From positions 36,500,528 to 36,564,527 of the forward strand of contig CAIIXF020000012.1 of NCBI GenBank assembly GCA_903813345.2: a stretch of 64,000 nucleotides of DNA, in the 5' to 3' direction. This stretch comes from Owenia fusiformis. Its lineage: Eukaryota > Annelida > Polychaeta > Sabellida > Oweniidae. The notes under the pieces are model-generated. The model ran no database searches. It was not told where the DNA came from and was given only the letters and a program-made list of their open reading frames with translations. The translations under genes and the position numbers were made by a program. Shown here piece by piece: positions 21,735 through 51,000 of the stretch (positions within the stretch are counted from its first letter, which is position 1; each line of letters begins with the position of its first letter).

Positions 21735-23555
21735 TTCTGTAAGATTGTTGACAATCTGCAATCTGAATTGCAATCTGTTCTATACTTCTCTCTCAATGTT
21801 ACAATGTGCAGATTGTTGCAATGTGTGCAATCTGCAATCTGGATTGTACAATCTGTTTTATACTTCTCTCAGAATGGCCAACAATCTTAACAATGTTAGC
21901 AATGTTGCAATGTGCAGATTGTTGCAATGTGTGCAATCTGCAATCTGGATTGTACAATCTGTTTTATACTTCTCTCAGAATGACCAACAATCTTAACAAT
22001 GTTAGCAATGTTGCAATATGCAGATTGTTGCAATGTGCGCAAACTGCAATCTGGATTGTGCAATCTGTTTTATACTTCTCCTTTCAGAATGACCAACAAT
22101 CTTAACAATGTTAGCAATGTTGCAATGTGCACATTGTTGCAATGTGTGCAAACTGCAATCTGGATTGTGCAATCTGTTTTATACTTCTCCTTTCAGAATG
22201 ACCAACAATCTTAACAATGTTAGCAATGTTGCAATGTGCACATTGTTGCAATGTGTGCAATCTGCAATCTGGATTGTACAATCTGTTTTATACTTCTCTC
22301 AGAATGACCAACAATCTTAACAATGTTAGCAATGTTGCAATGTGCAGATTGTTGCAAAGTGTGCAATCTGCAATCTAGATTGTGCAATCTGTTTTATACT
22401 TCTCCCCTCAGAATGACCAACAATCTTAACAATGTTAGCAATGTTGCAATGTGCAGATTGTTGCAATGTTGCAATGTGCAGATTGTTGCAATGTGTGCAA
22501 ACTGCAATCTGGATTGTACAATCTGATTTGTACTTCTCCCCTCAGAATGGTCAACAATCTTAACAATGTTAGCAATGTTGCAATGTGAAGATTGTTGCAC
22601 AATTGATATGTGCAAACTGCAATCTGGATTGTACAATCTGTTTTGTACTTCTCGTCTCAAAATGGCCAACAATCTTAACAATCTTAGAAATGTTGCAATG
22701 TACAGATTGTTGCAATATGTGCAAACTGCAATCTGGATTGTACAATCTGTTTTATACTTCTCTTAGAATGGCCAACAATCTTAACAATGTTAGCAATGTT
22801 GCAATGTACAGATTGTTGCAATGTGTGCAAACTGCAATCTGGATTGTACAATCTGTTATATACTTCTCCCCTCAGGATGGTCAACAATCTTAACAATGTT
22901 AGCAATGTTGCAATGTACAGATTGTTGCAATGTACAGATTGTTGCAATGTGTGCAAACTGCAATCTGGATTGTACAATCTGTTTTATACTTCTCCTTTCA
23001 GAATGGCCAACAATCTTAACAATGTTAGCAATGTTGCAATGTGCACATTGTTGCAAAATGTGCAAACTGCAATCTGGATTGTACAATCTGTTTTATACTT
23101 CTCCCCTTAGAATGGTCAACAATCTCAATAAACAATCTTAACAATCTAAGCAATGTTGCAATGTGCAGATTGTTGCAATGTGTGCAAACTGCAATCTAGA
23201 TTGTACAATCTGTTTTATACTTCTCCCCTCAGAATGGTCAACAATCTTAACAATGTTAGCAATGTGCAGATTGTTGCAATGTGTGCAAACTGCAATCTGG
23301 ATTGTGCAATCTGTTTTTACTTCTCGTCTCAAAATGGTCAACAATCTCAACAATCTTAGCAATGTTGCAATGTGCAGATTGTTGCAATGTGTGCAATCTG
23401 CAATCTGGATTGTGCAATCTGTTTTATACTTCTCTCAGAATGGTCAACAATCTTAACAATGTTGCAATGTGCAGATTGTTGCAATGTGTGCAATCTGCAA
23501 TCTGGATTGTGCAATCTGTTTTATACTTCTCTCAGAAAGGCCAACAATCTTACTC
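21735..23555 (+). repeat. Minisatellite, 106-109-bp unit, about 17 copies
   Basis: Unit: CAACAATCTTAACAATGTT, AGCAATGTTGCAATGTGCAG, ATTGTTGCAATGTGTGCAA, CTGCAATCTGGATTGTACAA, TCTGTTTTATACTTCTC, TCAGAATGG. Successive starts at 21885, 21991, 22100, 22209 and 22315 give periods of 106, 109, 109 and 106; the 3-bp change is CTC/CTCCTT before TCAGAATG. Many small frames across it are period artefacts. Related units lie inverted at 26030-26515. Confidence 0.95.
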
Positions 23556-26029: not shown

Positions 26030-26515
26030 TTGCAACAATATTCATATTGCAACAATGTTAAGGTTATATTAGATTCTGAAAGTATAAACCATATTGCAAC
26101 AATCTGCACATTGCAACATTGCTAAGATTGTTAAGATTGTTTGCTATTCTGAGAGAAGTATAAAACAGATTGCAACAATCCAGATTGCAGATTGCACACA
26201 TTGCAACAATCTGCACATTGCAACATTGCTAAGATTGTTGCCATTCTGAGAGGAGATGTATAAACAGATTGTACAATCCAGATTGCAGATTGCAGCAATG
26301 TTATATTTCGCATTGTTAGATTGCAACAATCCAGATTGCAGATTGCACACATTGCAACAATCTGCACATTGCAACATTGCTAAGATTGTTGCCATTCTGA
26401 GAGGAGATGTATAGACAGATTGTACAATCCAGATTGCAGATTGCAACAATGTTATATTTCACATTGTCAGATTGCAATAATCCAGATTGCAGATTGCAAC
26501 AATGTTAACTTTCAG
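26030..26515 (-). repeat. Inverted cluster of the 21735 minisatellite unit
   Basis: Four or so partial units on the minus strand with CAGATTGTTGCAATGTGTGC, CAATCTGGATTGTACAATCT and GCAACATTGCTAAGATTG (complement). They are more variable than the left cluster, and include duplicates 26140-26300 and 26330-26450. Confidence 0.85.
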
Positions 26516-27060: not shown

Positions 27061-30000
27061 GTAAGTTTAGGTTACCAACTCATCTTTTCCTGCAACTATA
27101 ATAGATTATATACACATAGCTTGGCATGATACTTGAAATGTATATCACATTCTTGGCAATTAGAACAGATACTATCCTTTCTATATTCTTTATATAGATG
27201 AATGGTTAATAAATGGATACTTGTGGAAATGGGACACCCTTGATCTTGTGTGAAAACTCCAACTAGTATAATTGAACATTTCTGGTGCTAGTATTCAAAT
27301 GAAGTCGGTAATTATGCAAATGTTGATCTTGTGAAAAACATTACAAAACGTTTTTGGTTTAATTTTATTTTTTAATGATATTGTGCAATTTCTTTAGATA
27401 TACAATATACATGGGAAGAACTTATGCTACTCATGGTCGATTAATTTTACTAGCATATCTTGCATGCTAGTCATATTAAAGTCGTGTTGTCATTGTCAAC
27501 CTTCTTCAAATTATCGTACATAAGCCGCCCTTGCTTAATGAGTGGCTTCACGAAAAACTAAGCCAGCACTAAACAGAAATCATATAGCCATGGACTACAA
27601 CCCTTTATGCTAATTCCGGTGGGTCATTTTCTAAAGAAATAGTTGAATATGTTTTTTGCTGTACTGTACCTTTCCCACTTGAACAACATTGTGATTTTCA
27701 ACAACTTACTATTTTATGCTAGTTACGTTTATTCACCAAAATGAACACCATTTACTTTAAATTGCCTTATTGAAAATGTGTTTTTATGAACTTTATTCAG
27801 TATATATCAAACACAGTGCACAGTACAGTGAAACATTCATGTTGTACCTTTCAGATATACCATACTGGAGATCATATCGCCTATCGCTTGCGATCATCAG
27901 TTTCATCGGCTTCATCTTTGTGTATGTTGTCCGAACCAATTTTTCCATCGCTATGATATGCATGGTCAAACGCCCATTTAGGAACCCTACGAGTGCAATG
28001 AACGAAACAAAACCAAAAATAGGAAATAACACACGTTTTACAGAAATCGACATTGGAGATGAAGCATGTAGCCTTGTAACACAAATCAACGATTATACGG
28101 TATGATATGTAAAGTGATTGGTGATAAATTACTCTCAGAATTGAAAATATGGGATTAAAGTCCCGGGACAAAAATTGAAAAATTTGGTGGCCTTTTGACA
28201 AAACACAACCAGATAATAAACGGAGTTATCGATATGATTTGTAGCATGGGGAGTTTGAATGGGATCGACGGCTGCAGGGATTGTTGCTCAGTTCATTTTT
28301 CTATGGATATGTCGTGACGCAACTTCCGGCTGGCATAATGGCTGACAAATTTGGCGGGAAAAGAGTGTTTGGTTTTGGAATGCTTGTTACAGTGGTTGCA
28401 ATGGTGCTCATTCCTATCGGCGCACGGTTCCACATCTCTATAGTATTCATCTGCCGAGTGCTAATGGGATTTGGTACAGTATGTTCGATTGTGTGATGAC
28501 ATGATTTTTTATCTTTACCTTGAATAACTTGTAGATATGTAATCCCAAAACCTCCTATTTTCTGGGGTATTTTCAAACACACCTTTTAACATTTTCACGA
28601 GACGTCTGTCTGAATGTTTTGTTACTGATTACCACCAGGGCGTAGTATTTCCTGCTATGCACTCGATGTGGGGGAAGTGGGCGCCACCATTAGAGCGAAG
28701 TAAATTAATGACATTTTGTTATTCTGGTAAGTTTCAATACGTATAAATATACACATCTTAGCATGAATGAATTCAGGGTTCTGAGGAAAATGCTTTTGGC
28801 GAAGGTGTATATAATGTACTATGATTTAAATTTTAGGTGTTAATATAGGAACAGTTCTTTCCCTGACAGTTTCTGGTTTACTGTGTCACACAGGAATAGA
28901 TGGAGGATGGCCATCCATCTTCTATGTGTCTGGTATACTATTTTGATTTTCAGATTTCCATATTTTAAGGCAAAATCAGATCTATGGGGGTGGTAAAATT
29001 ACAAGCAAAAGCAACATATACAATTGACCTACCAAGCTATTCCTTACAATCTCAAATACAAAATCTCCAAAAAGATCTTCGATATATTATAAATTGGTGA
29101 ATTTATGATGGATTAAAGGTGCAAAAATGGGTGTAAAATGTTTAAATTCTCCCAAACAATAAGAATGGTAACCATTCTTATAGAAAAATAATACATTATT
29201 GTAAAAATCTTTAGTTTTCCTGAAATAACGTGTGTACTTTGGGGATTTTTAGCAAATAGACATGAAAAGGAATGACACAAGCCAGAAATATTCTAAAATT
29301 GAAACAATTTTTTGTTTGGCTGCTCGCTATATCTGATTCTCTCTTTAATCTTTGATTTATTTTAAAATGAGCAATTTAAGATTGACATTGCACAAACAGC
29401 TACATTGTAGTAGATTTTTGGGCACTATCTGATTCGTCTACAATTTATAATCAGGTGGAGCGACATTTCTTTGGATACTGCTTTGGGCGTTTTTCGTATT
29501 TGATACACCACGTGACCATCCTAGAATCACGGATGTGGAGCGAGATTACATCGAGAGTTCAATTGGTCAAATATCAACAAAGAAGAGGAAATCTATTATA
29601 GTTCCTTGGCTAGAACTGTGGAAATCCAAACCACTGTGGGCGATAATAACGGCCCATGTTTGTAATAATTGGGGTGGTTACACCTTGTTGACAAGTTTAC
29701 CTACATACATGAGAGACGTCTTAAAGTTTCACATTCGATCAGTAAGATTTTATACTTTAAGGATTCATACTATTGTCAACATTTTTATTAAATGTATTGA
29801 AAAACGTTCCTGATAACTTTCTTTTTGATAATCATATTTGGTTATTCATAAACATTTAAGCATCGTTGTAGACAGTTTTATTTAAATAGCAATTATTTCT
29901 GATTTATGCCATGCTTAATTTAGCTATCACACTCTGGTGCTAAATAATGTAACCTATGATATAGAACTATAATGTATTTTTTGTTCTACAGAATGGCTTT

Positions 30001-33000
30001 CTCTCAGCGCTTCCCTACATATGTATGTGGCTTTTCTTTATACTTGGTGGCCAAGTGGCTGACCATTTACGTAAAAAACAAAAACTTTCAACGGAAGCAA
30101 CCAGGAAGCTTTTCCAAACAATAGGTATATAAAAACATTAGATTATACGTTATTCTGTACTTTTATGTTTAGTAAAATCGTTGCTGATATATAGTGAATA
30201 ATTTTCTATTTACCACTGATTTCATTGTGCTCTCCGATCAGGAAAAACGAATAAAACGATATTGTGATCAACATTTTTCATTATCCCAGAAAGTAATCCC
30301 CCGAATGTTTCAGTCAAGAAAATGTACTGATTTTTGTTACGTGCCAACTATTTTATATTAAATGAGCAACGGTGTATACGATATTTGTTACGATTAGCAC
30401 ACTGTCATTTTTTAAAAACTACATCTAAATACATATCCATACGGCGTTTTCACTCAAGGGACCTGCTAAGGGTCCGTAGTCAGGGGAAGGTTTTGGGGCT
30501 TCGAGCGAAATCCCCATTTGGCCAAAATATCTTTCAAAACCATGCAGGGTTTCACGATTTTGAGCACTTTTCAAGTGATTTTGGGCCACAATTGTCAAAT
30601 TTGAGCCCACTGGAATTGTTTAAAACTGACATGCCTTGGCAAAAGTTGATTTCGGGCCTGTGCTGTATTGTATACATATATATATATTTATACAGTGTAA
30701 CCGAATAGAATAATGTGGTTCTAGTAAAGCTCAGGGATTTACGAAAAAGACCGACCCCTAAGACCGACTCTACCGACCACCGACTGGTCGGTGTTTTCCA
30801 CTGGTAGCATAGATGACATAGGTTTAATCAAAATTGGGTTAGGCTGACAAGTCAATGCACTATCATCTAGTGCAAAATTTAACATAACGGTTTTGTATGT
30901 TGTTTGTAAACCACTATACATTTAACATTTATGTTTTAGCTTTTTTGGGGGCAGCCATTTTCATGCTCGCCACTGGATTTATGAATTGCGAGAGGCGCTA
31001 TCTTGCTGTCGCATTTCTCACGATAGGGGTCACTCTTCAAGGGGCAGGAGCATCTGGCTTTGTCGTCAACCATGTAGACATAGCCCCGATGTTAGTTACA
31101 ATTAGGATTCATTAACATTGCCAAGATTAAAAAAACAGCAACTCCACGGAGTAGCAAATCTCACCGAACAATTCGTAAAATATCATTTGAGTTATCAAAG
31201 ATTACGTTCCATTTTTACGAAAAATGGCAGCCAATTTGAAAATCAGCCGCCATTTTGAAAATCTTTCTCAGAGAGCTACTGTGTCTCTGGGCATCAGCAT
31301 ATACAATTTGAACAAAATCCATGCACTGCTATTTGAGTTATCAAACATTACATTTTTACAAAAAATGGCGGCAATTTTAAAATTCAGATGCCATCTTGAA
31401 AATTCTTTGTCATACAGAGGAACTTTGTCTCTAGGCATCATCATATGAATTTTGATCCAAATCCGTTCACTGGTATTTGAGTTAAAGATCACGTTTTTAC
31501 GAAAAATGGCTGCCATTTTGATATTTAGCAGCCATTCTAAAAATATTTTCTTCAATAGGCCATTTTGAAATTCAGCCGTCTTCTTGAAACCTCTTTCTTG
31601 AACAAATCTACTTTTAACGTAGGCATCATCATATAAAATTCGAACCAAATCCGTTCACTGGTATTTGAGTTATCAAAGATTACATTTTTTTTACAAAATA
31701 TGGCCGCCATTTTGATATTTAGCATCCATTTTGAAAATGTCTTCTTCAGCGTAGCTCCCTTGTTTCTAGGCATCAGCATATAACCTAATCAGTCAACTAG
31801 TATTTGAACGGAATCCGTTCACTGGTATTTGAGTTTTCAAAGATTACGCGTTTTTTGTGAAGAATTTTGATAATATTGATTATATTAAGGAGCAATTTTG
31901 AAATCTCTTCTTCGGCGTACATGTAGCTCCTTTGTCCCTAGGCATCAGCATATAAAATTTGAACCAAATCCGTCAACTAGATATAGTATTTCAGTTATCA
32001 AAGATTATATTATACGAAAAATGGCGGCCATTTTTAATTAAGCGGCTATATTGAAAATTCCTTCTCAGGCAGAGGTTCTACCCCCATAAGGCATAAGCCT
32101 ATAGAATCAAATCCGTCAACCGGTATTTGTGTTATCGCCCGGACAAACGGACAGACGGACAGACGGACAAATGGACAGACGGACCACTTTCCTAATATCC
32201 GCGAACTTTGTTCGGTGGGATATTAGGTTTTTATTGATGCAATTCACTATTCTTTGATCTCAAACTTATTTTGAGTATCAGATTTTACGAGCAACTAGAA
32301 TATTTTGGGCTGATTGTTATGTTTATTTTCTAAAATCCACTCAGTGAATAGTTTATTAGAGGAAAACTTGAGTTTTACAAATATGAAATGTGTTAATGTC
32401 TCTCTAAATGTGGTGGTTGCTTTTAAGGATCATTTCACAGAATTTGGGCATTCAAATAATCACCAAATGACAGTATAACGTAGATTTTTTGAGAGATCTG
32501 ACTATCCACAAATATTTGCCTGAATTTCATTTTCATTATTCAATTGTTTAGTCATCTTTATTCAGGTATGCCGGTGTGTTATATGGCATAACTAACACTG
32601 CAGGAACACTTTCTGGCATATTCTCTCCAATGGTTGTTGGTGTAATAGCTCCAAATGTAAGTAAATGCAAGCGACACTTTCTGGCATATTCTCTCCAATG
32701 GTTGTTGGCGTAATAGCTCCAAATGTAAGTAAATGCAAGCGACACTTTCTGGCATATTCTCTCCAATGGTTGTTGGCGTAATAGCTCCAAATGTAAGTTA
32801 ATGCAAGCGACACTTTCTGGCATATTCTCTCCAATGGTTGTTGGCGTAATAGCTCCAAATGTAAGTAAATGCAAGCGACACTTTCTGGCATATTCTCTCC
32901 AATGGTTGTTGGTGTAATAGCTCCAAATGTAAGTAAATACAAGCGACACTTTCTGGCATATTCTCTCCAATGGTTGTTGGCGTAATAGCTCCAAATGTAA

Positions 33001-36000
33001 GTAAATGCAAGCGACACTTTCTGGCATATTCTCTCCAATGGTTGTTGGCGTAATAGCTCCAAATGTAAGTAAATGCAAGCGACACTTTCTGGCATATTAT
33101 CTCCAATGGTTGTTGGCGTAATAGCTCCAAATGTAAGTAAATGCAAGCGACACTTTCTGACATATTCTCTCCAATGGTTGTTGGTGTAATAGCTCCAAAT
33201 GTAAGTAAATGCAAGCGACACATTCTGGCATATTCTCTCCAATGGTTGTTGGTGTAATAGCTCCAAATGTAAGTAAATGCAAGCGACACTTTCTGGCATA
33301 TTCTCTCCAATGGTTGTTGGTGTAATAGCTCCAAATGTAAGTAAATGCAAGCGACACTTTCTGGCATATTCTCTCCAATGGTTGTTGGCGTAATAGCTCC
33401 AAATGTAAGTAAATGCAAGCGACACTTCCTGGCATATTCTCTCCAATGGTTGTTGGTGTAATAGCTCCAAATGTAAGTAAATGCAAGCGACACTTTCTGG
33501 CATATTCTCTCCAATGGTTGTTGGTGTAATAGCTCCAAATGTAAGTAAATGCAAGCGACACTTTCTGGTATATTCTCTCCAATGGTTGTTGGTGTAATAG
33601 CTCCAAATGTAAGTAAATGCAAGCGACACTTTCTGGCATATTCTCTCCAATGGTTGTTGGTGTAATAGCTCCAAATGTAAGTAAATGCAAGCGACACTTT
33701 CTGGCATATTCTCTCCAATGGTTGTTGGTGTAATAGCTCCAAATGTAAGTAAATGCAAGCGACACTTTCTGGCATATTCTCTCCAATGGTTGTTGGTGTA
33801 ATAGCTCCAAATGTAAGTAAATGCAAGCGACACTTTCTGGCATATTCTCTCCAATGGTTGTTGGTGTAATAGCTCCAAATGTAAGTAAATGCAAGCGACA
33901 CTTTCTGGCATATTCTCTCCAATGGTTGTTGGTGTAATAGCTCCAAATGTAAGTAAATGCAAGCGACACTTTCTGGCATATTCTCTCGAATGGTTGTTGG
34001 TGTAATAGCTCCAAATGTAAGTAAATGCAAGCGACACTTTCTGGCATATTCTCTCCTATGGTTGTTGGCGTAATAGCTCCAAATGTAAGTAAATGCAAGC
34101 GACACATTCTGGCATATTCTCTCGAATGGTTGTTGGTGTAATAGCTCCAAATGTAAGTAAATGCAAGCGACACTTTCTGGCATATTCTCTCGAATGGTTG
34201 TTGGTGTAATAGCTCCAAATGTAAGTAAATGCAAGCGACACTTTCTGGCATATTCTCTCCAATGGTTGTTGGCGTAATAGCTCCAAATGTAAGTAAATGC
34301 AAGCGACACTTTCTGGCATATTCTCTCCAATGGTTGTTGGTGTAATAGCTCCAAATGTAAGTAAATGCAAGCGACACTTTCTGACATATTCTCTCCAATG
34401 GTTGTTGGTGTAATAGCTCCAAATGTAAGTAAATGCAAGCGACACTTTCTGGCATATTCTCTCCAATGGTTGTTGGTGTAATAGCTCCAAATGTAAGTAA
34501 ATACAAGCGACACATTCTGGCATATTCTCTCCAATGGTTGTTGGCGTAATAGCTCCAAATGTAAGTAAATGCAAGCGACACTTTCTGGCATATTCTCTCC
34601 AATGGTTGTTGGTGTAATAGCTCCAAATGTAAGTAAATGCAAGCGACACTTTCTGGCATATTCTCTCCAATGGTTGTTGGCGTAATAGCTCCAAATGTAA
34701 GTAAATGCAAGCGACACTTTCTGGCATATTCTCTCCCATGGTTGTTGGTGTAATAGCTCCAAATGTAAGTAAATGCAAGCGACACTTTCTGGCATATTCT
34801 CTCCAATGGTTGTTGGTGTAATAGCTCCAAATGTAAGTAAATGCAAGCGACACTTTCTGGCATATTCTCTCCAATTGTTGTTGGTGTAATAGCTCCAAAT
34901 GTAAGTAAATGCAAGCGACACTTTCTGGCTTATTCTCTCCAATGGTTGTTGGTGTAATAGCTCCAAATGTAAGTAAATGCAAGCGACACTTTCTGGCATA
35001 TTCTCTCGAATGGTTGTTGGTGTAATAGCTCCAAATGTAAGTAAATGCAAGCGACACTTTCTGGCATATTCTCTCCCATGGTTGTTGGCGTAATAGCTCC
35101 AAATGTAAGTAAATGCAAGCGACACTTTCTGGCATATTCTCTCCAATGGTTGTTGGTGTAATAGCTCCAAATGTAAGTAAATGCAAGCGACACTTTCTGG
35201 CATATTCTCTCCAATGGTTGTTGGTGTAATAGCTCCAAATGTAAGTAAATGCAAGCGACACTTTCTGGCATATTCTCTCGAATGGTTGTTGGTGTAATAG
35301 CTCCAAATGTAAGTAAATGCAAGCGACACTTTCTGGCATATTCTCTCCAATGGTTGTTGGTGTAATAGCTCCAAATGTAAGTAAATGCAAGCGACACTTT
35401 CTGGCATATTATCTCCAATGGTTGTTGGCGTAATAGCTCCAAATGTAAGTAAATGCAAGCGACACTTTCTGGCATATTCTCTCCAATGGTTGTTGGTGTA
35501 ATAGCTCCAAATGTAAGTAAATGCAAGCGACACTTTCTGGCATATTCTCTCCAATGGTTGTTGGTGTAATAGCTCCAAATGTAAGTAAATGCAAGCGACA
35601 CTTTCTGGCATATTCTCTCCAATGGTTGTTGGTGTAATAGCTCCAAATGTAAGTAAATGCAAGCGACACTTTCTGACATATTCTCTCCAATGGTTGTTGG
35701 TGTAATAGCTCCAAATGTAAGTAAATGCAAGCGACACTTTCTGGCATATTCTCTCCAATGGTTGTTGGTGTAATAGCTCCAAATGTAAGTAAATGCAAGA
35801 TACACTTTCTGGCATATTCTCTCCAATGGTTGTTGGTGTAATAGCTCCAAACGTAAGTAAATGCAAGCGACACTTTCTGGCATATTCTCTCCAATGGTTG
35901 TTGTCGTAATAGCTCCAAATGTAAGTAAATGCAAGCGACACTTTCTGGCATATTCTCTCCAATGGTTGTTGGTGTAATAGCTCCAAATGTAAGTAAATGC

Positions 36001-39000
36001 AAGCGACACTTTCTGGCATATTCTCTCCAATGGTTGTTGGCGTAATAGCTCCAAATGTAAGTAAATGCAAGCGACACTTTCTGGCATATTCTCTCCAATG
36101 GTTGTTGGTGTAATAGCTCCAAATGTAAGTAAATGCAAGCGACACTTTCTGGCATATTCTCTCCAATGGTTGTTGGCGTAATAGCTCCAAATGTAAGTAA
36201 ATGCAAGCGACACTTTCTGGCATATTCTCTCCAATGGTTGTTGGTGTAATAGCTCCAAATGTAAGTAAATGCAAGCGACACTTTCTGGCATATTCTCTCC
36301 AATGGTTGTTGGTGTAATAGCTCCAAATGTAAGTAAATGCAAGCGACACTTTCTGGCATATTCTCTCCAATGGTTGTTTGTGTAATAGCTCCAAATGTAA
36401 GTAAATGCAAGCGACACTTTCTGGCATATTCTCTCCTATGGTTGTTGGCGTAATAGCTCCAAATGTAAGTAAATGCAAGCGACACTTTCTGGCATATTCT
36501 CTCTAATTGTTGTTGGTGTAATAGCTCCAAATGTAAGTAAATGCAAGCGACACTTTCTGGCATATTCTCTCCAATGGTTGTTGGTGTAATAGCTCCAAAT
36601 GTAAGTAAATGCAAGCGACACTTTCTGGCATATTCTCTCCAATGGTTGTTGGTGTAATAGCTCCAAATGTAAGTAAATGCAAGCGACACTTTCTGGCATA
36701 TTCTCTCCAATGGTTGTTGGTGTAATAGCTCCAAATGTAAGTAAATGCAAGCGACACTTTCTGGCATATTCTCTCCAATGGTTGTTGGTGTAATAGCTCC
36801 AAATGTAAGTAAATGCAAGCGACACTTTCTGGCATATTCTCTCCAATGGTTGTTGGTGTAATAGCTCCAAATGTAAGTAAATGCAAGCGACACTTTCTGG
36901 CATATTCTCTCCAATGGTTATTGGTGTAATAGCTCCAAATGTAAGTAAATGCAAGCGACACTTTCTGGCATATTCTCTCCAATGGTTGTTGGTGTAATAG
37001 CTCCAAATGTAAGTAAATGCAAGCGACACTTTCTGGCATATTCTCTCGAATGGTTGTTGGCGTAATAGCTCCAACTGTAAGTAAATGCAAGCGACACTTT
37101 CTGGCATATTCTCTCCAATGGTTGTTGGTGTAATAGCTCCAAATGTAAGTAAATGCAAGCGACACTTTCTGGCATATTCTCTCCAATGGTTGTTGGTGTA
37201 ATAGCTACAAATGTAAGTAAATGCAAGCGACACTTTCTGGCATATTCTCTCCAATGGTTGTTGGTGTAATAGCTCCAAATGTAAGTAAATGCAAGCGACA
37301 CTTTCTGGCATATTCTCTCCAATGGTTGTTGGTGTAATAGCTCCAAATGTAAGTAAATGCAAGCGACACTTTCTGGCATATTCTCTCCAATGGTTGTTGG
37401 TGTAATAGCTCCAAATGTAAGTAAATGCAAGCGACACTTTCTGGCATATTCTCTCCAATGGTTGTTGGTGTAATAGCTCCAAATGTAGGTAAATGCAAGC
37501 GACACTTTCTGGCATATTCTCTCCAATGGTTGTTGGCGTAATAGCTCCAAATGTAAGTAAATGCAAGCGACACTTTCTGGCATATTCTCTCCAATGGTTG
37601 TTGGTGTAATAGCTCCAAATGTAAGTAAATGCAAGCGACACTTCCTGGCATATTCTCTCCAATGGTTGTTGGTGTAATAGCTCCAAATGTAAGTAAATGC
37701 AAGCGACACTTTCTGGCATATTCTCTCCAATGGTTGTTGGTGTAATAGCTCCAAATGTAAGTAAATGCAAGCGACACTTTCTGGTATATTCTCTCCAATG
37801 GTTGTTGGTGTAATAGCTCCAAATGTAAGTAAATGCAAGCGACACTTTCTGGCATATTCTCTCCAATGGTTGTTGGTGTAATAGCTCCAAATGTAAGTAA
37901 ATGCAAGCGACACTTTCTGGCATATTCTCTCCAATGGTTGTTGGTGTAATAGCTCCAAATGTAAGTAAATGCAAGCGACACTTTCTGGCATATTCTCTCC
38001 AATGGTTGTTGGTGTAATAGCTCCTAATGTAAGTAAATGCAAGCGACACTTTCTGGCATATTCTCTCAAATGGTTGTTGGTGTAATAGCTCCAAATGTAA
38101 GTAAATGCAAGCGACACTTTCTGGCATATTCTCTCCAATGGTTGTTGGTGTAATAGCTCCAAATGTAAGTAAATGCAAGCGACACTTTCTGGCATATTCT
38201 CTCCAATGGTTGTTGGTGTAATAGCTCCAAATGTAAGTAAATGCAAGCGACACTTTCTGGCATATTCTCTCCAATGGTTGTTGGTGTAATAGCTCCAAAT
38301 GTAAGAAAATGCAAGCGACACTTTCTGGCATATTCTCACCCATGGTTGTTGGCGTAATAGCTCCAAATGTAAGTAAATGCAAGCGACACTTTCTGGCATA
38401 TTCTCTCCAATGGTTGTTGGTGTAATAGCTCCAAATGTAAGTAAATGCAAGCGACACTTTCTGGCATATTCTCTCCAATGGTTGTTGGTGTAATAGCTCC
38501 AAATGTAAGTAAATGCAAGCGACACTTTCTGGCATATTCTCTCCAATGGTTGTTGGTGTAATAGCTCCAAATGTAAGTAAATGCAAGCGACACTTTCTGG
38601 CATATTCTCTCGAATGGTTGTTGGTGTAATAGCTCCAAATGTAAGTAAATGCAAGCGACACTTTCTGGCATATTCTCTCCAATGGTTGTTGGTGTAATAG
38701 CTCCAAATGTAAGTAAATGCAAGCGACACTTTCTGGCATATTCTCTCCAATGGTTGTTGGTGTAATAGCTCCATATGTAAGTAAATGCAAGCGACACTTT
38801 CTGGCATATTCTCTCCAATGGTTGTTGGTGTAATAGCTCCAAATGTAAGTAAATGCAAGCGACACTTTCTGGCATATTCTCTCCAATGGTTGTTGGCGTA
38901 ATAGCTCCAAATGTAAGTAAATGCAAGCGACACTTTCTGGCATATTCTCTCCAATGGTTGTTGGTGTAATAGCTCCAAATGTAAGTAAATACAAGCGACA

Positions 39001-42000
39001 CATTCTGGCATATTCTCTCCAATGGTTGTTGGTGTAATAGCTCCAAATGTAAGTAAATGCAAGCGACACTTTCTGGCATATTCTCTCCAATGGTTGTTGG
39101 TGTAATAGCTCCAAATGTAAGTAAATGCAAGCGACACTTTCTGGCATATTCTCACCCATGGTTGTTGGCGTAATAGCTCCAAATGTAAGTAAATGCAAGC
39201 GACACTTTCTGGCATATTCTCTCCAATGGTTGTTGGCGTAATAGCTCCAAATGTAAGTAAATGCAAGCGACACTTTCTGGCATATTCTCTCCAATGGTTG
39301 TTGGTGTAATAGCTCCAAATGTAAGTAAATGCAAGCGACACTTTCTGGCATATTCTCTCCAATGGTTGTTGGCGTAATAGCTCCAAATGTAAGTAAATGC
39401 AAGCGACACTTTCTGACATATTCTCTCCAATTGTTGTTGGTGTAATAGCTCCAAATGTAAGTAAATGCAAGCGACACTTTCTGACATATTCTCTCCAATT
39501 GTTGTTGGTGTAATAGCTCCAAATGTAAGTAAATGCAAGCGACACTTTCTGGCATATTCTCTCCAATGGTTGTTGGTGTAATAGCTCCAAATGTAAGTAA
39601 ATGCAAGCGACACTTTCTGGTATATTCTCTCCAATGGTTGTTGGCGTAATAGCTCCAAATGTAAGTAAATGCAAGCGACACTTTCTGGCATATTCTCTCC
39701 AATGGTTGTTGGCGTAATAGCTCCAAATGTAAGTAAATGCAAGCGACACTTTCTGGCATATTCTCTCCAATGGTTGTTGGTGTAATAGCTCCAAATGTAA
39801 GTAAATGCAAGCGACACTTTCTGGCATAATCTCTCCAATGGTTGTTGGTGTAATAGCTCCAAATGTAAGTAAATGCAAGCGTCACTTTCTGGCATATTCT
39901 CTCCTATGGTTGTTGGCGTAATAGCTCCAAATGTAAGTAAATGCAAGCGACACTTTCTGGCATATTCTCTCCAATGGTTGTTGGTGTAATAGCTCCAAAT
40001 GTAAGTAAATGCAAGCGACGCATTCTGGCATATTCTCTCTAATTGTTGTTGGTGTAATAGCTCCAAATGTAAGTAAATGCAAGCGACACTTTCTGGTATA
40101 TTCTCTCCAATGGTTGTTGGTGTAATAGCTCCAAATGTAAGTAAATGCAAGCGACACTTTCTGACATATTCTCTCCAATGGTTGTTGGTGTAATAGCTCC
40201 AAATGTAAGTAAATGCAAGCGACACTTTCTGGCATATTCTCTCCAATGGTTGTTGGCGTAATAGCTCCAAATGTAAGTAAATGCAAGCGACACTTTCTGG
40301 CATATTCTCTCCAATGGTTGTTGGTGTAATAGCTCCAAATGTAAGTAAATGCAAGCGACACTTTCTGGCATAATCTCTCCAATGGTTGTTGGTGTAATAG
40401 CTCCAAATGTAAGTAAATGCAAGCGTCACTTTCTGGCATATTCTCTCCTATGGTTGTTGGTGTAATAGCTCCAAATGTAAGTAAATGCAAGCGACACTTT
40501 CTGGCATATTCTCTCCAATGGTTGTTGGTGTAATAGCTCCAAATGTAAGTAAATGCAAGCGACACTTTCTGGCATATTCTCTCCAATGGTTGTTGGTGTA
40601 ATAGCTCCAAATGTAAGTAAATGCAAGCGACACTTTCTGGTATATTCTCTCCAATGGTTGTTGGCGTAATAGCTCCAAATGTAAGTAAATGCAAGCGACA
40701 CTTTCTGGCATATTCTCTCCAATGGTTGTTGGTGTAATAGCTCCAAATGTAAGTAAATGCAAGCGACACTTTCTGGCATATTCTCTCTAATTGTTGTTGG
40801 TGTAATAGCTCCAAATGTAGGTAAATGCAAGCGACACTTTCTGGCATATTCTCTCCAATGGTTGTTGGTGTAATAGCTCCAAATGTAAGTAAATGCAAGC
40901 GACACTTTCTGGCATATTCTCTCCAATGGTTGTTGGTGTAATAGCTACAAATGTAAGTAAATGCAAGCGACACTTTCTGGCATATTCTCTCCAATGGTTG
41001 TTGGCGTAATAGCTCCAAATGTAAGTAAATGCAAGCGACACTTTCTGGCATATTCTCTCCAATGGTTATTGGTGTAATAGCTCCAAATGTAAGTAAATGC
41101 AAGCGACACTTTCTGGCATATTCTCTCCAATGGTTGTTGGCGTAATAGCTCCAAATGTAAGTAAATGCAAGCGACACTTTCTGGCATATTCTCTCCAATG
41201 GTTATTGGTGTAATAGCTCCAAATGTAAGTAAATGCAAGCGACACTTTCTGGCATATTCTCTCCAATGGTTGTTGGTGTAATAGCTCCAAATGTAAGTAA
41301 ATGCAAGCGACACTTTCTGGCATATTCTCTCCAATGGTTGTTGGCGTAATAGCTCCAACTGTAAATAAATGCAAGCGACACTTTCTGGCATATTCTCTCC
41401 AATGGTTGTTGGTGTAATAGCTCCAAATGTAAGTAAATGCAAGCGACACTTTCTGGCATATTCTCTCGAATGGTTGTTGGTGTAATAGCTCCAAATGTAA
41501 GTAAATGCAAGCGACACTTTCTGGCATATTCTCTCCAATGGTTGTTGGTGTAATAGCTCCAAATGTAAGTAAATGCAAGCGACACTTTCTGGCATATTCT
41601 CTCCAATGGTTGTTGGTGTAATAGCTCCAAATGTAAGTAAATGCAAGCGACACTTTCTGGCATATTCTCTCCAATGGTTGTTGGCGTAATAGCTCCAAAT
41701 GTAAGTAAATGCAAGCGACACTTTCTGGCATATTCTCTCCAATGGTTGTTGGCGTAATAGCTCCAAATGTAAGTAAATGCAAGCGACACTTTCTGAAATA
41801 TTCTCTCCAATGGTTGTTGGCGTAATAGCTCCAAATGTAAGTAAATACAAGCGACACTTTCTGACATATTCTCTCCAATGGTTGTTGGCGTAATAGCTCC
41901 ATATGTAAGTAAATGCAAGCGACACTTTCTGGAATATTCTCTCCAATGGTTGTTGGCGTAATAGCTCCAAATGTAAGTAAATGCAAGCGACACTTTCTGG

Positions 42001-45000
42001 CATATTCTCTCCAATGGTTGTTGGTGTAATAGCTCCAAATGTAAGTAAATGCAAGCGACACTTTCTGGAATATTCTCTCCAATGGTTGTTGGTGTAATAG
42101 CTCCAAATGTAAGTAAATGCAAGCGAAACTTTCTGGCATATTCTCTCCAATGGTTGTTGGCGTAATAGCTCCAAATGTAAGTAAATGCAAGCGACACTTT
42201 CTGGCATATTCTCTCCAATGGTTGTTGGTGTAATAGCTCCAAATGTAAGTAAATGCAAGCGACACATTCTGGCATATTCTCTCTAATTGTTGTTGGTGTA
42301 ATAGCTCCAAATGTAAGTAAATGCAAGCGACACTTTCTGGCATATTCTCTCCAATGGTTGTTGGTGTAATAGCTCCAAATGTAAGTAAATGCAAGCGACA
42401 CTTTCTGGCATATTCTCTCCAATGGTTGTTGGTGTAATAGCTCCAAATGTAAGTAAATGCAAGCGACACTTTCTGGCATATTCTCTCCAATGGTTGTTGG
42501 CGTAATAGCTCCAAATGTAAGTAAATGCAAGCGACACTTTCTGGCATATTATCTCCAATGGTTGTTGGCGTAATAGCTCCAAATGTAAGTAAATGCAAGC
42601 GACACTTTCTGACATATTCTCTCCAATGGTTGTTGGTGTAATAGCTCCAAATGTAAGTAAATGCAAGCGACACATTCTGGCATATTCTCTCCAATGGTTG
42701 TTGGTGTAATAGCTCCAAATGTAAGTAAATGCAAGCGACACTTTCTGGCATATTCTCTCCAATGGTTGTTGGTGTAATAGCTCCAAATGTAAGTAAATGC
42801 AAGCGACACTTTCTGGCATATTCTCTCCAATGGTTGTTGGTGTAATAACTCTAAATGTAAGTAAATGCAAGCGACACTTTCTGGCATATTCTCTCCAATG
42901 GTTGTTGGTGTAATAGCTCCAAATGTAAGTAAATGCAAGCGACACTTTCTGGCATATTCTCTCCAATGGTTGTTGGTGTAATAGCTCCAAATGTAAGTAA
43001 ATGCAAGCGACACTTTCTGAAATATTCTCTAAAATGGCTATTGTGGGTGATAGCTTAAAATGTAAGTACATATTATAATCAACACTTTCTGGCATTTTCT
43101 CACCAATGATTGTTCGGGAAGCATCGGAGTAACACATCGACTCATACCTATAAAATAGGACACATACGTAGGTTAAACAACTTCTCAGCAAATATCAGAA
43201 AATGTCAAAATGTCACCCGAAGTTTTTCACAAAGATGTAAAATGTAAAATACTATATGTGAAATATAACAAAGTATATTTGGGTTAAACCTCATCATTGT
43301 TACACATTGGTTGAGTTATGATTGCTATGACTACACATGTATTCATTGGTATCAATAATTGAAAAAATCATGGATTAAAGATCATTAATTTTAATAATAA
43401 CATTTATTGTCAACGAAGTCACAAATCCGCCAAGACACTAATTTTGAAATAATCACAGTTTCCACATAATTTGAGTCAATTGAAAAACAAGAGCTTGAGT
43501 TAAGTGAAACCAACGGCGAACGTAATACCCGGAACGTTCGCAAATTGATGTTCGTTTTTTTACCGCATCCGATTTGAATTAGCCAATTAACATGGAATGC
43601 ACACTACAATTATTTTGCCATAGGCTGTAATGTTAACTTCCAATGTCCTCAAGTAAAACCAGATCGAATTTATGCTCAATCATCACCCTTACTTCAAAGC
43701 ACAATGTCTTATTTACCCAACCCGAGAAATATAATTAAAATCGGTACATTGATTTTTTTCTTGTCATGGTTTTATCTCCTCCACCCCGAAGAGCTCCATA
43801 GAATCACTCAAAATTAAGCAGTGTATAAATGCGCTGTTTTTCTGAAGTGAAAACGAAATGAACTTCAAGCTGCCCATATCAACTTGTTCCATCAACTTAC
43901 TGACTTAATGTGTCTGACCCCCCTTTGGACATAAAGTCCAGAGCTGAATATGTCAGCACATGTTGATGATTGGTAAGTAAAAACAAATGGCATCCCTTTG
44001 ACATAAAGTACAACTTATAACGTACACTGGCATGTAGCGGCCCTGATATCGATAAATTCTACACGCAATATAACCCGATTTTAGATGCTTGGTTAAAATG
44101 TAACAATCCACNNNNNNNNNNNNNNNNNNNNNNNGTATGAACACCAAATTATAACTTGCAACTAAGGAACGGCCCCAGTATTCAATACAGGGCCGTTACA
44201 AAAACTTTACACGAAAAAGCCTCGATATCCGGGCATTTACTCTTACACTGAACTGAAAATAGCATCGTCTAAACGTGTATGTCTTGGCTTCCGGGTAAGT
44301 TTATCAACATTTATACTCAATTGAAAGAGCAGTCGTGCTTATATCGTGTACCAGTTTGATTGTTTTATATGTGTGTGTATTTATAATATGATAGTCTAGT
44401 AATACCGTGTCGTTAGAACAAGTGCTAGATATCGAACTGATGACCTGAAATTAGATTATTGGACTGATCGCGCATCTGATATTAGATGATTAATTTGCAT
44501 TGAATCTGATATTAACTTGCAACCCAATACCACAGTAAATACCATGACTTTACATTAGAATGATAACACGGCCTCATATTCTAATTCATTATACGTCCAT
44601 TGCAGGCCAAAAATGTTTCAATGGGGATTTTGTAATGCACACGAGAATACATTCGATTCGTATATATTGACACCCCAGTTGTCCGAAACCCAGTTGTCCG
44701 AAACCCAATTCCCCGAAACCCAGTTGTCCGAAACCCATTACTCCGAAAAATAAAGTCATAATTTACCAGAGAAATGGGGGGGGGGGGGCGTAGCTTACTT
44801 AAGCTTACGTCAGTTTCATGCCATGTATTTGGCCAAATTAATGGCATGGACGCATTCTGATATTCATAGATCTCTCTCTCACTTTGAATTGCATCCATTG
44901 CATGGCGTTACCAGAATGGCAGGAACGGGAGATTTATTTTACATTGTGATTCTAAAAAAGGTTATTAAAACACAATATATATTACGGAACAGTTTATCTT

Positions 45001-48000
45001 ATCTTCTTTAATCTCTTTTATATAGGCAAAATAAAATGAAACATTTTGAAACAGATAAAATAAGTAATCGCATAGAACTTTAAGAATAAAACAGTATACA
45101 AATTACGTTGTCAAAATATTTCGTCGCATTTAATTTCTTAGTCTCAGTCTCTTATCAAATCGTAAAAGAATAAAACATTCTAAACTTAATCACTTGGGAT
45201 TTATGTTTCGGCATTCGTTTCAGGCATTTGTTTTTTATGTTCTTTTCCTGAAATGTATGTGTTTGACAATAATCAGAGAAAGTGAGTATACGTATAAATA
45301 TGCCACGCAAACAAACGGGTGTGACTTCAATTTCTTGTCTGTCTGAGGACGTATTGGGAACGAGGTAGAATTAAAGAATTCTTATGAACAAATGTATTGG
45401 ATAAGTTAATTTCTGATGGATCTGGATAAAATATATTTCAAAACTTTGTCAACACTAGATAACTTCATTTAGGCAGATATAGTATCTTGATATATTTGGC
45501 TATCATGCGTTTAAAATACGTTCCTAAAACTATGAAGACGTTGGGTGAGAAATATTGCTATTGTACGTTCGAAAAGTATTTGGTTGTATTTTGTAGTTCT
45601 CAAGTTACCCATGAACTTTCGTGGGCTAATTAACGTCTTGACTTAGCATATTTAGCCTAATTTTGCAATGATGTCAACGTGATTCAAATGTTATGCTGTC
45701 GTGATTCGCAGAGGTTGCAACAAGATTCGTTTTAAGAAATTGTATTTTTTGATAAGATCCCCTAATTTTCGGAGAACTTGGTTTCGGACAACTGGGTTTC
45801 GGAGAATTGAGTTTCGGACAACTGGGTCTCGGACAACTGGATTGACCCCTATGAGGGTTGATCATACATCAATTGAACATGGAGATTTTCCTGTACACTT
45901 CTCCCAAACATGTGGAATAGACTAGATGCGAGTAGAAATTATCTTGATTTATCCTATGCCAAGTAGGGTTTTAGGGAGATAAGTTGGTAAGATATATCCC
46001 GTATCCTGATTTTGAGGTTTCCATATCAAGAACCTTCATATCTCCCGTCATATCTCCCGCTTCGGTGCATATCTTCCCGCTTCGGGGCGTATCTTCCCGC
46101 ATCCAAAAAAGTGGAAATGCAATAAAATGACTTTGCATATGAATGATTTGTTTATTTTTTACACCTTGTACTACTGAAAACTCTACTTGGTATAGGATAA
46201 AGCAGTTATGTACGGTCGGTTTGGATATTGGGTTCATCCCTCGTGAGATATGCACATCTACTTTCTGTCCCTACGGTCCCTCAGGTAGATATGCATATCT
46301 CCCTCTGGAAAAACCCCATATCCAAAACCTCCGAGTACATAACCCTTATTTATCCCATGGTTAAAAGGATATAGATCGAATATCACGTGAAGATATAATT
46401 GATACGTGGATGAAGATAACATATTTTAGCAAACAATTCCCAAATCATCGAATATCACTTTTGAAACCATCGAATATCACTCTTTGAAAGGTGATATTCG
46501 ATGGTTTCAAAAGTGATATTCGATGGTTTCAAAAGTGATATTCGATGGTTTTGATTTTTTCAATTTTTTTTATTAATTCAGCAAAACGATTGTTTATGAA
46601 TACCTAGCAAGAGCTCAAAAAGTTCAATCATCTATGTATCTCAAAAAGACCTCAAAAACTGAGCTTGAATTAGAAATATGTCTTCTAAAATCTTCCTCGC
46701 CTGGACCTGATGGGATTCTACCATCACTTATTAAGTCTGTAAGACAGTTTTTAATTGATCCACTCTAGTATATATTTAACTTATCTTTTAAATCTGGTAT
46801 TTTCCCAGACGCCCTCAAATTGGCCAAAGTAACACCTGTATTTAAAAAAGGAGTCACTACAAATCCTTCGAACTATAGACCAATTTCAGTTTTATCGGTA
46901 TTTTCTAAATTGTTAGAAAAGCTCACGCACGCCAAACTCACTGGTTTTTTAGAACGTTTTGAAATTATTTTTACTTATCAATTTGGATTTCAGAAATTCA
47001 ACTCTACCTACATGGCCATTTTATATTTCATTGAACAAATTCGAAAATCAACTGATTTGGGGAAAACGAGCATTGGCATAACATTAGATTTTTCCAAGGC
47101 CTTTGACACAATTAATCATGACATTTTGATACAAAAACTTGAATATTATGGCATCAGAGGAATAGCTAAGTCCTGGTTTGAAAGTTATTTAAAAGACCGC
47201 AGACAATATGTCACCATTAACAATTATGAATCTAAACAATCATCTCTAAACTGTGGTGTTCCGCAGGGCTCGGTACTTGGACCACTATTATTTATTCTTT
47301 ACATAAATGATCTGCCTTTTGTTGACCCTAATCTAAAATTTATTATGTTTGCTGATGACACCAATCTTCTTGATAGTGATTATGATTTAAATGAACTTAT
47401 GACTAGAACTAATGCAAACTTGAATTCAATAGATGACTGGATAAAAGCAAACAAACTTTTACTTAATATTGGCAAAACCAATGCTATTCTATTTGGACCC
47501 AAAAAATCAAACAAATCTAAATCTCAAAATACGCAATGAGAACATAAATTTCCGGGATAAAATTGACTTTCTTGGAATTATTATTGATAAAAACTTGAAA
47601 TTTAAAGAGCACATAAAATCTATTGAAACAAAGATTTCTCGCGTCATTGGTTCTCTTTATCACATTAAACATCTACTTCAAATAGACAGTTTCAAAACAA
47701 TATACTACTCATTGATACACTCTTAATTAAATTATTGCAACATAATCTGGGGTAACACATTTAAATCATTTTATGATCGTCTACATAAACTGCAGAAACA
47801 ATTCTTAAGACTAGCTTTAAATAAGGATAGACTTTCTCACTCCGCTCCCTTATTTAAAGATCTTAACATATTAAATATTTTTGATGTCAACAGATATTGT
47901 ACTGGTCAGTTCATGTACAAAATCTTTAATAAGCACCCCAGTCTTCCAAAAAATCTATTTCAAGACTTGTTTGATATCAACATTAATATTCATCATCATT

Positions 48001-51000
48001 ACACAAGACAATTGCATTATTTTCATATCCCTAAATGCTCTAAACTTTCCCTTCACTATCTAGGTCCTAATCTTTGGAATGCTCTACCCCATGATATTAA
48101 AAAATGCTCCACTCTAAATATTTTCAAATCTTCATATAAAAAACTACTCATCTAACGATAATGTATAATACCAATATCATACTATACTGTTGATTTTATA
48201 CTGATACCTGATTTTTGTAACATTTTTACATTGTACATCCTTAGATTAATTGTTAATACCATTTTTATATACCTACATGTAACATAATATAAGTATTTTC
48301 TTTTATATGTAGTCTAGATGTCATTTTAATGATTTCTGTTAGACCGCAACATATACCCACTAGGGTGTCTAGCGGCTTGTTTTTATAGTGTATATTATAT
48401 AAGAACTATGAAATAAATTGAATTGAATTGAATTGAATTATATATTTATTATATATTTTTATTTTTTGGGATCTTGTTTTTACGGCGTTCGCATTAAATA
48501 CAAACCACTCTGTTACGTCACGTATATGACGTTCGTTGAATTATCGCAATCAAAATGTCAGACGAAATGGAATTTCCATTGCAATTTATCTGACTATTCA
48601 ATGTTCGCTGGATAATAATTCCCAATGGGATAAACGGACAATCCTATAGTTTTTCAAAAATATCACTTATATCCACTCATGGATATCAGTATCTTCACTC
48701 ATTCGCTGCGCTCACTCGCGAAGATATCAATATCCACTCATGGATATAAGTGATATTTTTTCAGAGCCATAGGATATTCCTATATTATTCCATAGTTAGC
48801 ATGATATCCATAGGATAACATGTCAAAATAAAAACGGTATTTTTGAAATCAGTGGTAAAATATGATATTTTTGGCAAATTTTCACTTAACCATAGCATAC
48901 GGTGTTTTAGCCATGACATGCGGCGTCGTATGCCATGGTTTATGGATTTTTGCTACTTCAGACTCAAAACGAGCCTAAGTGTCAATATCGCCGTATCGTT
49001 TGGAAAATTCGTTTTAAATCACTTAATTCCCGAAGATTCTGATGATGACTTTAACTATGGAATATAAAGAACATCCTATGATTTACTCGTGATATGATTT
49101 TAATCCACTCATGGATGTTGATATCTGCACTCTCTCGCTACGCTCACTCGTGCAGATATCATATCCATTCGTGGATAAAAATCATATCACTCATAAATCA
49201 CTGGATATCCTCTATTTAAGATGTGATATTCGATAGTTTAAAAGTGATATTCGATGGTTTGTAAATTGTTTGCTAAAATATGATATCTTGATCCACATAT
49301 CAAATATATCATCATGTGATATTCGATCTATATCCTCCTTGCAACCATGGGATAAAGCTTTACGTCCCGCTCCAAGCGGGCAGATATAGTATATCTGCCC
49401 GCTACGTCATAATCGCCGCTTGCATATTTGTTCATAATTTGTAACGTTCGCGGAATGACTGTAAACGGCAATGGAGAAAACACAGACAATCCGGGTCTGT
49501 AGTTAAAAAAAGGGAAAGAGCATCCACTTTATCAATAAAAAATTCGAGAAAATAAATATGGGAATATTTGAGAGAACATGAAAATCCGCCCACGGCCAAG
49601 AAAACAAAACTGGACATGAATATTCTAAAATATTTCCACGATTTAACAATGTGAACCAGATGACCAAGATTGGTATGGGATAAACATATCCTATAGTCAG
49701 GATATTGGGATTATCCCTTGGCCAATATATAGGGGTTATGGTTATTTTATCCAAAACCTCCAAGTGCATAACTGTTGTATATAGTTTAGCATGATATGTA
49801 CTTCTTTCTGTAACTGGAATACGATTCTAATATACAAGCAGCACATACGTATTCCCGGGGAACCATAAATATTTTGTGTAGGGTGTGGACATTTTTCTTT
49901 TCATTTCTCTAAAATCAGATTATTCTCATAAAATTCATACAAAGTTGGGCCTAAGCCTCTATTTTCGTATTCTGCATGTTAAGATATTTATAATGTAAAA
50001 CCTAAGAGATAAATTCAATGTCTTCAGTTGAGAATAAGTATAAGGTAAATGTGTGAATTCTGCTTGTTGTTGCACTATTTTTATAATAAACAAGGTTCGA
50101 TACGCAACACTGAATAGACTGCAGTCATAGCTTAGTTGTAAAGAAAACAAAAGAAGTTGGGACGTGGTCATGCTTGAATACGATTTTAAATATATCGCCG
50201 TTTACATTTGTTGAAATCGGCCTGTATTAATTTCAACAGGTGATCGGTGTACAAGGGCATATATTTGAGTTATTGGTTTAACGATAAGTATGACCTATGA
50301 GTGGGCAACGTTTTACAAATGCATGAAACAAATACTCCAATGGCCTAATCTCAATTTTCCTGCATAAACTATTACATTGAAATGATGGTCATTTGCTCTC
50401 TAACTTCCGCACCGCATACGTAACTTCGTAACAATTCAATAAGCCAAGACAGGACCGCTATAATCGCTACATGCCAGTGAACGTATACTTATACTTATAA
50501 ATAAACGTACAAGGTGTTTCATAATGTGGGATTTTCGTCAGGAAAGATCTTCTCGGACTGTAATAAATAAAGGTCAAAGGGATGCCATTTGTACTTTCTT
50601 GAATTGTAGCATGTTTAGTTGATCCAAATGTGTTTGTCTAGAATAAAACAGGCTCATATATAGTACATATGTTATAGACCCATCTCTTCTCAAATTGACT
50701 TTTTGGAGACGCTCGTTATGAAACACCCTGTATGTCATTTGTTGAGCTACTGAATGGGTCGTTTCCAGGAATTGCTAGAACCTACTGGTTTGATTGGTTT
50801 TTCAAATCGATGGTTAAAGTATTTGATTGGATACTGTTCATACTCAGCCAATTAATTTTAAAAAATATTTGCGGTCAATTGTTCCACGCACATGTAGTTA
50901 AAGCTTTATACGGAGATCCAACTGTATACGTTTATCATCTACGTATTTATACCGTTTTGTAAGTTCATAGAACTTATACTGAGCATGAAAACATTGAAAT

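Follow-up and report, generated by a model that had tools for sequence, protein, structure and literature searches.

A splice-donor minisatellite in a sialin-like gene

The 64,000-bp stretch of the Owenia fusiformis genome analyzed here (the window; assembly GCA_903813345.2, contig CAIIXF020000012.1, positions 36,500,528 to 36,564,527) contained an SLC17 transporter gene in which the end of a coding exon, together with its 5' splice site, was repeated head to tail 153 times over 10,404 bp. This array is a new, very large case of an already described class, the junction-straddling minisatellites known as 'mirages' in amphioxus. A very long mirage in the last recognized intron of a sialin-like SLC17 gene was the best joint explanation of the observations and is considered probable. 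Coordinates are window positions on the + strand unless a contig is named.

In the output of Tandem Repeats Finder (TRF), one array with a 68-bp period covered 32606-43114; it had 154.5 copies, 97% matches, 0% indels (insertions or deletions) and a score of 19939. When the array was split unit by unit, units 1 to 153 (32606-43009) were each exactly 68 bp long, without a single indel. Each unit consisted of 51 coding nucleotides (17 codons) followed by GTAAGTAAATGCAAGCG, which is the GTAAGT donor and 11 further intron bases. Unit 1 (32606-32673) was identical to the array consensus and comprised the end of exon H, the authentic donor and 17 intron nucleotides in all. Two decayed copies followed unit 153: unit 154 (43010-43081, 72 bp), which was about 74% identical to unit 1 and kept GTAAGT, and the partial unit 155 (43082 to about 43119), which was about 84% identical over 38 nucleotides. 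When units 2-153 were masked, an nhmmer search of the window recovered unit 1 (E 7e-26), unit 154 (E 6e-9) and unit 155 (E 1e-6), and beyond these only a chance-level match (E 2.1). An earlier note on this DNA had described a 153-copy, 10.4-kb minisatellite whose 68-bp unit carries the last 51 coding bases of an exon, crosses the GTAAGT donor and ends 17 bases into the intron. The unit split and the sequence agreed with that description, and the proposal that an exon end and its 5' splice site had been amplified, with unit 1 as the functional copy, was borne out by the anatomy.

Nine recognizable coding exons of an SLC17 transporter, here labeled A to I, were found on the + strand of the window. 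The joined translation of the C-terminal half matched solved structures of sialin (8dwi, E 3.6e-60) and of vesicular glutamate transporters (VGLUT2, 8sbe, E 7.1e-46) in phmmer searches, which identifies the host gene by similarity as a sialin-like SLC17 transporter with sialin as its best solved relative; this supported the SLC17-like assignment of the earlier note. The array exon had been called exon 9, a number that was not confirmed: among the recognized coding exons it is the eighth of nine, and penultimate. Exon H (32566-32656; acceptor TTCAG/G, donor AAT/GTAAGT) contributes its last 51 nucleotides as the coding part of unit 1, and its phase fits exons G and I. By homology and translation, exon G (30940-31090, donor GTTAGT) encodes FLGAAIF...VNHVDIAP plus two further nucleotides, while exon I (52182-52376, acceptor TTCCAG/G, phase 0) is the last coding exon and ends in KTR and a stop codon. 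Exons G, H and I joined in phase, and the joined translation matched sialin. The intron between H and I spans 19,525 bp (32657-52181), more than half of it array (32657-43009); the other introns between recognized exons B to H were about 0.1 to 1.5 kb.

The units were highly uniform. Sixty-three of the 153 were identical to the consensus, 46 distinct unit types were present, and only 132 of the 10,404 cells of the unit alignment differed from the array consensus, giving a mean pairwise difference between units of 2.29%. The GT dinucleotide was kept in all 153 units and the full GTAAGT in 149.

Relation to described junction-spanning repeats

The array had several of the features by which mirages are recognized. 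The homogenized interior ended in the divergent edge units 154 and 155, the units carried exon and intron sequence across an authentic junction, and, as far as anatomy indicates, the functional copy stood at the edge of the array, where unit 1 is continuous with the upstream part of exon H, with the remaining copies intronic. Length instability between haplotypes or tissues is also reported for mirages. The original paper on the amphioxus Adh mirages, cited in later accounts, is that of Canestro et al. (2002).

The phenomenon itself is already on record: amphioxus mirages (PMC3087553, PMC3902484) and a human ABCA7 variable number tandem repeat (VNTR; PMC5954066) have been described. Amphioxus mirages are tandem repeats of varied unit length that span exon-intron boundaries at both 5' and 3' ends, with homogenized interiors and excluded edges, and the authors suggest that new introns could arise from them (PMC3087553). 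Further lancelet cases were found in Adh, troponin C and PGBD5 (PMC3902484). Like the focal array, they are minisatellite-like duplications that span a boundary, with the authentic copy beside the duplicates and an interior homogenized to the exclusion of its edges. The 68-bp focal unit compares with mirage units of 10-72 bp in Adh3, 150-160 bp in BflGb6, 157 bp in BflGb9, and 60 and 108 bp in PGBD5. The two systems differ in copy number, with six and three units in the BflGb6 haplotypes against 153 here, and in host, a cephalochordate in one case and a lophotrochozoan annelid in the other.

A second close parallel was the VNTR in intron 18 of human ABCA7, in which the first two bases of a 25-bp unit are those of the exon-18 donor and alleles range from 298 to 10,678 bp, or about 12 to 427 units (PMC5954066). 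Both are arrays at an exon donor of a transporter gene, with kilobase alleles in ABCA7, and as in ABCA7 the authentic donor lies within the focal array, with GT in every unit. The longest ABCA7 allele is slightly longer than the focal array. However, the ABCA7 unit begins at the GT and lies in a C-rich region, whereas the focal unit starts 51 nucleotides inside the exon, and effects on splicing, expression and disease risk have been tested for ABCA7.

Other parallels were also found. Minisatellite expansion at exon-intron boundaries alters intron structure in human segmental duplications (PMC2812944), where the repeats average four 30-bp units and vary between recent human paralogs, in contrast to 153 units of 68 bp here. 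The Rogers model (as cited in PMC3087553) has introns created by tandem duplication of segments containing AG/GT. It shares with the focal array the tandem duplication of splice signals, but the array multiplies an existing junction, and no new intron was seen. Tandem repeats were also reported in the first intron of earthworm metallothionein, in an account whose accessible part does not state whether they span a splice junction (PMC12783039). A search of the open-access literature, which left subscription papers mostly uncovered, found no junction-spanning minisatellites outside lancelets and humans among the papers listed. What is new in the present case is its size in coding-derived units, a paralog with an independent donor array at the corresponding exon, and the finding that such arrays recur in a lophotrochozoan genome.

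Homogenization and growth of the array

The distribution of variants along the array bears on how it grew. The mean number of differences between units was compared at 17 lags: it was 1.54 between immediate neighbors, 1.43 to 1.59 at lags 2 to 62, 1.66 at lag 80 and 1.72 at lag 100, with a value of 1.00 at lag 139 that comes from only 14 pairs. Neighboring units were therefore no more alike than distant ones, which suggests long-range exchange; local slippage alone is unlikely because it would leave neighboring units more alike. A five-unit block with four variant units recurred 139 units away, but this is only suggestive because the most extreme of 300 shuffles of unit order also reached four. 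The uniform interior, the scattered variants and the decayed far edge fit an expansion of a few older copies by unequal exchange or conversion.

The earlier note had seen a microhomology or slippage seed in the word ACACTTTCTGG, but these 11 bases are simply how the unit begins. No word is shared in register between the sequence preceding unit 1 (...GCAGGA) and the unit end (...CAAGCG), and the seed was rejected.

Both the mechanism of expansion and the neutrality of the array, as we infer them, would run as follows. A segment crossing the exon end and the donor was presumably first duplicated a few times, with units 154 and 155 as decayed remnants of this older set. Expansion to 153 copies would then have followed, with uniformity maintained by exchange and conversion along the array and with the far edge excluded. 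The most upstream copy would be the real exon end, whose donor the spliceosome would join to exon I, removing the other 152 donors with the intron. Because the first donor is expected to be joined to exon I and the other donors to be lost with the intron, the array would be nearly neutral, and any retention of 68-nucleotide units, ending at a stop codon in unit 2, would be low-level at most.

Several points weigh against this account of a very long, nearly neutral mirage. The copy number comes from the assembled sequence alone, and a run of 23 N, either a gap or a withheld stretch, lies about 1 kb past the array end (44112-44134). Decay at the far edge was not universal in the similar arrays described below: in a kinase exon (locus L070) the functional copy differed from three near-identical inner copies, and two acceptor arrays of SLC17 paralogs (L027 and L028) showed no clean gradient of decay. 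Use of the first donor in splicing is read from the anatomy of the exon, and neutrality may be wrong, given that the similar array in ABCA7 affects splicing.

Arrays at other splice junctions

The array does not stand alone: the same genome holds donor and acceptor arrays in SLC17 paralogs, in kinases and in an ABC gene. The SLC17 paralogs were located by protein searches. Those with the last exons had 44 matches, a figure that includes the focal gene and parts of its own array, and those with the earlier exons had 71. A search with the MFS_1 family had 13 matches, most of which fell in long open reading frames, and these were set aside. At the corresponding exon, a paralog on contig C1 (L005) carried a donor array of its own (...CTCACACCTAAT/GTAAGT...). 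Its unit is 34/35 bp with 16 coding nucleotides, and about 41 copies span 1.4 kb, with decay at the far end. Acceptor-straddling arrays were present at L033 (31 bp, about 8-10 copies), L028 (62 bp, about 7 copies) and L027 (32 bp, about 13 copies), and the start of an exon was duplicated at L001 (147 bp, two copies). The arrays of the paralogs look like independent events because unit lengths and positions differ, and from their sequences the focal and L005 arrays, at homologous donors, appear to be independent.

Two control sets were examined for similar arrays. The first comprised 88 loci, in which there were 103 hits to exons of ABC or kinase genes; its first eight loci came from the ABC (seven) and kinase (one) hit lists, and the next 80 were kinase regions, most of them short hits, hand-picked from the 144 hits listed. 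The later set comprised 40 hand-picked loci (23 homeobox, nine ABC and eight kinase) with 51 hits. The array test excluded the focal gene, L041 (its own 5'-half copy), L036 (no BLAST exon hit), L042 (a contig end) and L131-L142 (Hox). Arrays were counted if they had a period of at least 15 and a score of at least 50, which was one of three threshold settings compared over the initial 127 loci. Under the remaining two, 10 of 31 arrays (3.25 expected) and nine of 24 (2.79 expected) were straddling.

Several of the control cases were checked by eye. One kinase exon, which we take to be PAK-like (L070, C5:69021-70177), had both an acceptor array (86 bp, 3.8 copies) and a donor duplication (71 bp, two copies). 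Donor arrays were seen at L087 (54 bp, 3.9 copies, the unit including 48 exon nucleotides and GTAAGT) and L176 (80 bp, at least five copies, reaching the edge of the fetched stretch), and acceptor arrays at L103 (51 bp, 4.8 copies) and, in shorter form, L043 (21 bp, three copies). With the focal gene included, the donors affected were those of the focal gene, L005, L070, L087 and L176, and the acceptors those of L001, L027, L028, L033, L043, L070 and L103. Four candidates were rejected by eye: the array at L034 begins 19 nucleotides past the exon end, that at L002 stops about 8 nucleotides before the exon, and those at L120 and L100 are confined to the intron. A small repeat at L104 straddles an acceptor by eye but was not called by the coordinate rule and is uncounted, as are flagged repeats at L088, L094, L096 and L037.

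Recurrence of junction-straddling arrays in this genome is firmly established by these cases. Eleven of the 60 arrays in the 167 other loci (252 exon hits, focal array excluded) straddled an exon end, with 4.56 expected (P ~0.004) under a crude model in which exon hits are treated as exons and units are born at random outside exon interiors. By set, the counts were five of 23 among the SLC17 loci (2.26 expected, P 0.06), five of 30 in the first controls (1.87 expected, P 0.03) and one of seven in the later set (0.43 expected, P 0.36), in which the 23 homeobox exons had no straddling array. In the two control sets together, five of 154 exon hits had at least one straddling array. The excess is only suggestive because the model equates exon hits with exons and was built after cases had been seen, and because several loci are tandem paralogs, which leaves the counts less than fully independent.

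Exon ends may be true hot spots of minisatellite birth, for instance through R-loops or breaks at junctions, rather than places where random duplications are tolerated. The overall excess of straddling arrays and the two independent arrays at the homologous donor of SLC17 paralogs favor this idea. The model, however, is crude and postdates the first cases, and the later 40 loci alone showed little excess and nothing in their homeobox exons. A donor-word mechanism was rejected, in that runs of three GTAAGT (spacing 21-51 bp, 15-45 bases between) numbered 7095 genome-wide versus 6536 for the reversed word, only 1.09 times as many. We consider hot spots possible but rather doubtful. The idea that only donors are affected, extra donors being harmless in an intron, was also rejected, as acceptor-straddling arrays were at least as common.

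A broader reading joins these observations with the focal array. The splice junctions of this lophotrochozoan might be a recurrent birthplace of minisatellites, at about one in 30 control exons and at donors and acceptors alike, with arrays of up to 10 kb that trade sequence with the working exon end and serve as a lasting reservoir for rewritten exon ends or for new splice sites and introns. This is offered tentatively, as a speculation with the odds against it. If it were true, mirages would be general among animals and not a peculiarity of lancelets. Straddling arrays at several per cent of the sampled exons suggest that the class described from amphioxus is broader than thought, and such arrays are a possible route to changes of exon ends and to intron gain.

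Expected consequences for splicing and coding

Translation of exon H read through into the array meets an in-frame TAA in unit 2 (32711-32713), before the second donor, so that the reading frame runs for 48 codons, the last 18 of them beyond exon H, and then stops. Because of this stop, a full protein is expected from the first donor only, and splicing from any other would truncate it. The distinct variants in the coding part of the units comprised nine synonymous and 20 non-synonymous changes, versus 42 and 111 possible, and the array copies therefore look unconstrained. There were 0.57 distinct variants per site in the exon part, 0.50 in GTAAGT (none at the GT sites) and 0.36 in the remaining intron bases. 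The value for GTAAGT is near that of the exon part and thus gives no clear sign of selection keeping this motif; nothing in the variants clearly suggests that selection maintains the copies.

The array could instead be a regulatory or harmful splicing element, in which 153 donors of the U1 type compete with the authentic donor or distract from it. This would predict retention of one unit, a truncated protein or lower expression depending on copy number, as for ABCA7, and the presence of GT in all units and of GTAAGT in 149 speaks for it. In ABCA7 a longer VNTR goes with more exon-19 skipping and lower expression, and an isoform that retains one unit exists, although its level is unaffected by VNTR size (PMC5954066). 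Against this, amphioxus mirages are reported not to interfere with splicing (PMC3087553, PMC3902484), with Adh3 data and globin RT-PCR suggesting regular splicing in the first account. The lack of clear selection on GTAAGT and the presence of such arrays at other exons of the genome also argue against a splicing role, which is judged improbable here.

Under the preferred reading of a nearly neutral mirage, the gene is an extreme natural test of donor choice, with 149 intact GTAAGT among 153 units and a full protein expected from the first only. Accurate splicing would mean that the donor is chosen by position alone; otherwise, copy number should alter expression, as reported for ABCA7.

Single locus and reliability of the assembly

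The whole assembly (498.3 Mb in 525 contigs) was searched for further copies of the unit. A 33-mer across the unit junction, with up to two mismatches allowed, had 153 matches in the assembly and 153 in the array of the window, and there are therefore none elsewhere at this stringency. An exact 38-mer made of the three bases before unit 1 and 35 bases of unit 1 occurred once. No second haplotype copy was seen in this one assembly, in which, after the gene itself, the best matches were 74% identical for exon G and 65% for exon I. About 163-173 kb separate the array from the end of its contig, which is 36.7 Mb long.

An assembly artefact, in which repeats were multiplied or scrambled and the real array has far fewer units or another unit order, would account for the lack of spatial autocorrelation between units. 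It would also fit the five-unit block recurring 139 units away, though shuffled orders reached a similar extreme, and the N run about 1 kb downstream. It accords poorly with 46 distinct unit types, with zero indels in 10.4 kb and with strongly decayed units at one edge only. The junction 33-mer is unmatched elsewhere in the assembly, and a paralog carries an array of different build at its corresponding exon; an artefact is accordingly regarded as very unlikely. The many other tandem arrays in the window might suggest a dispersed satellite or mobile element that abuts the exon by chance, but this merits almost no credence, as the unit holds coding sequence of the host gene itself and no copies were found at other loci at up to two mismatches in the 33-mer, all 153 junction matches lying inside the focal array.

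Other exons and repeats

The upstream exons of the sialin-like gene were placed mainly by homology and candidate splice sites. Exon A was recognized as a coding core at 27863-27967, from translation and homology, with its limits not fixed. Exon B (28245-28478; acceptor GTAG, donor GTATGT) and exon E (29455-29741; donor GTAAGA) have limits taken from candidate sites, as does exon D (28837-28932; donor GTATAC), whose phase fits C and E. Exon C (28639-28726; acceptor CAG, donor GTAAGT) encodes a 29-residue peptide and was placed by homology and splice sites, and exon F (29992-30124) by homology and translation.

A second copy of exons A to D was found to the left of the window, about 38.3 kb upstream of the first and in the same orientation (L041, C12:36489600-36493600), with 94-100% amino-acid identity; a near-identical second exon E was not among the matches listed. 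From its sequence this copy looks like a partial recent duplication of the focal gene.

A Hox cluster was noted on contig C1, whose members we take, from their signatures, to be Post2, Lox2, Lox4, Antp, Lox5 (with a KLTGP tail), Scr, Dfd, Hox3 and lab. One member between Hox3 and lab and one hit beside Post2 were unreadable. Post2 and the Lox genes are marks of a lophotrochozoan and not of a lancelet. A COX1 search aimed at a mitochondrial contig had no match.

Several other repeats were present in the window. A direct repeat of about 0.8 kb, 92% identical between its copies, flanks exon I at 50480-51286 and 53848-54671, and an older relative (68%) lies at about 4034-4762; by sequence this is probably an interspersed element. 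Within the H-I intron, inverted arms at 44674-44752 and 45763-45840, 1 kb apart, each consist of a 15-bp tandem repeat (CCCAGTTGTCCGAAA, five copies), and the pair looks like a small element with terminal inverted repeats built of tandem repeats. Upstream of the recognized exons are a 1.76-kb array of units of about 109 bp (21794-23552) and, 2.5 kb away and inverted, a shorter related array (26090-26514). Further left in the window, at 1319-2698 and 8669-10087, lie the two copies of an inverted repeat of 1.4 kb, which are 96% identical.

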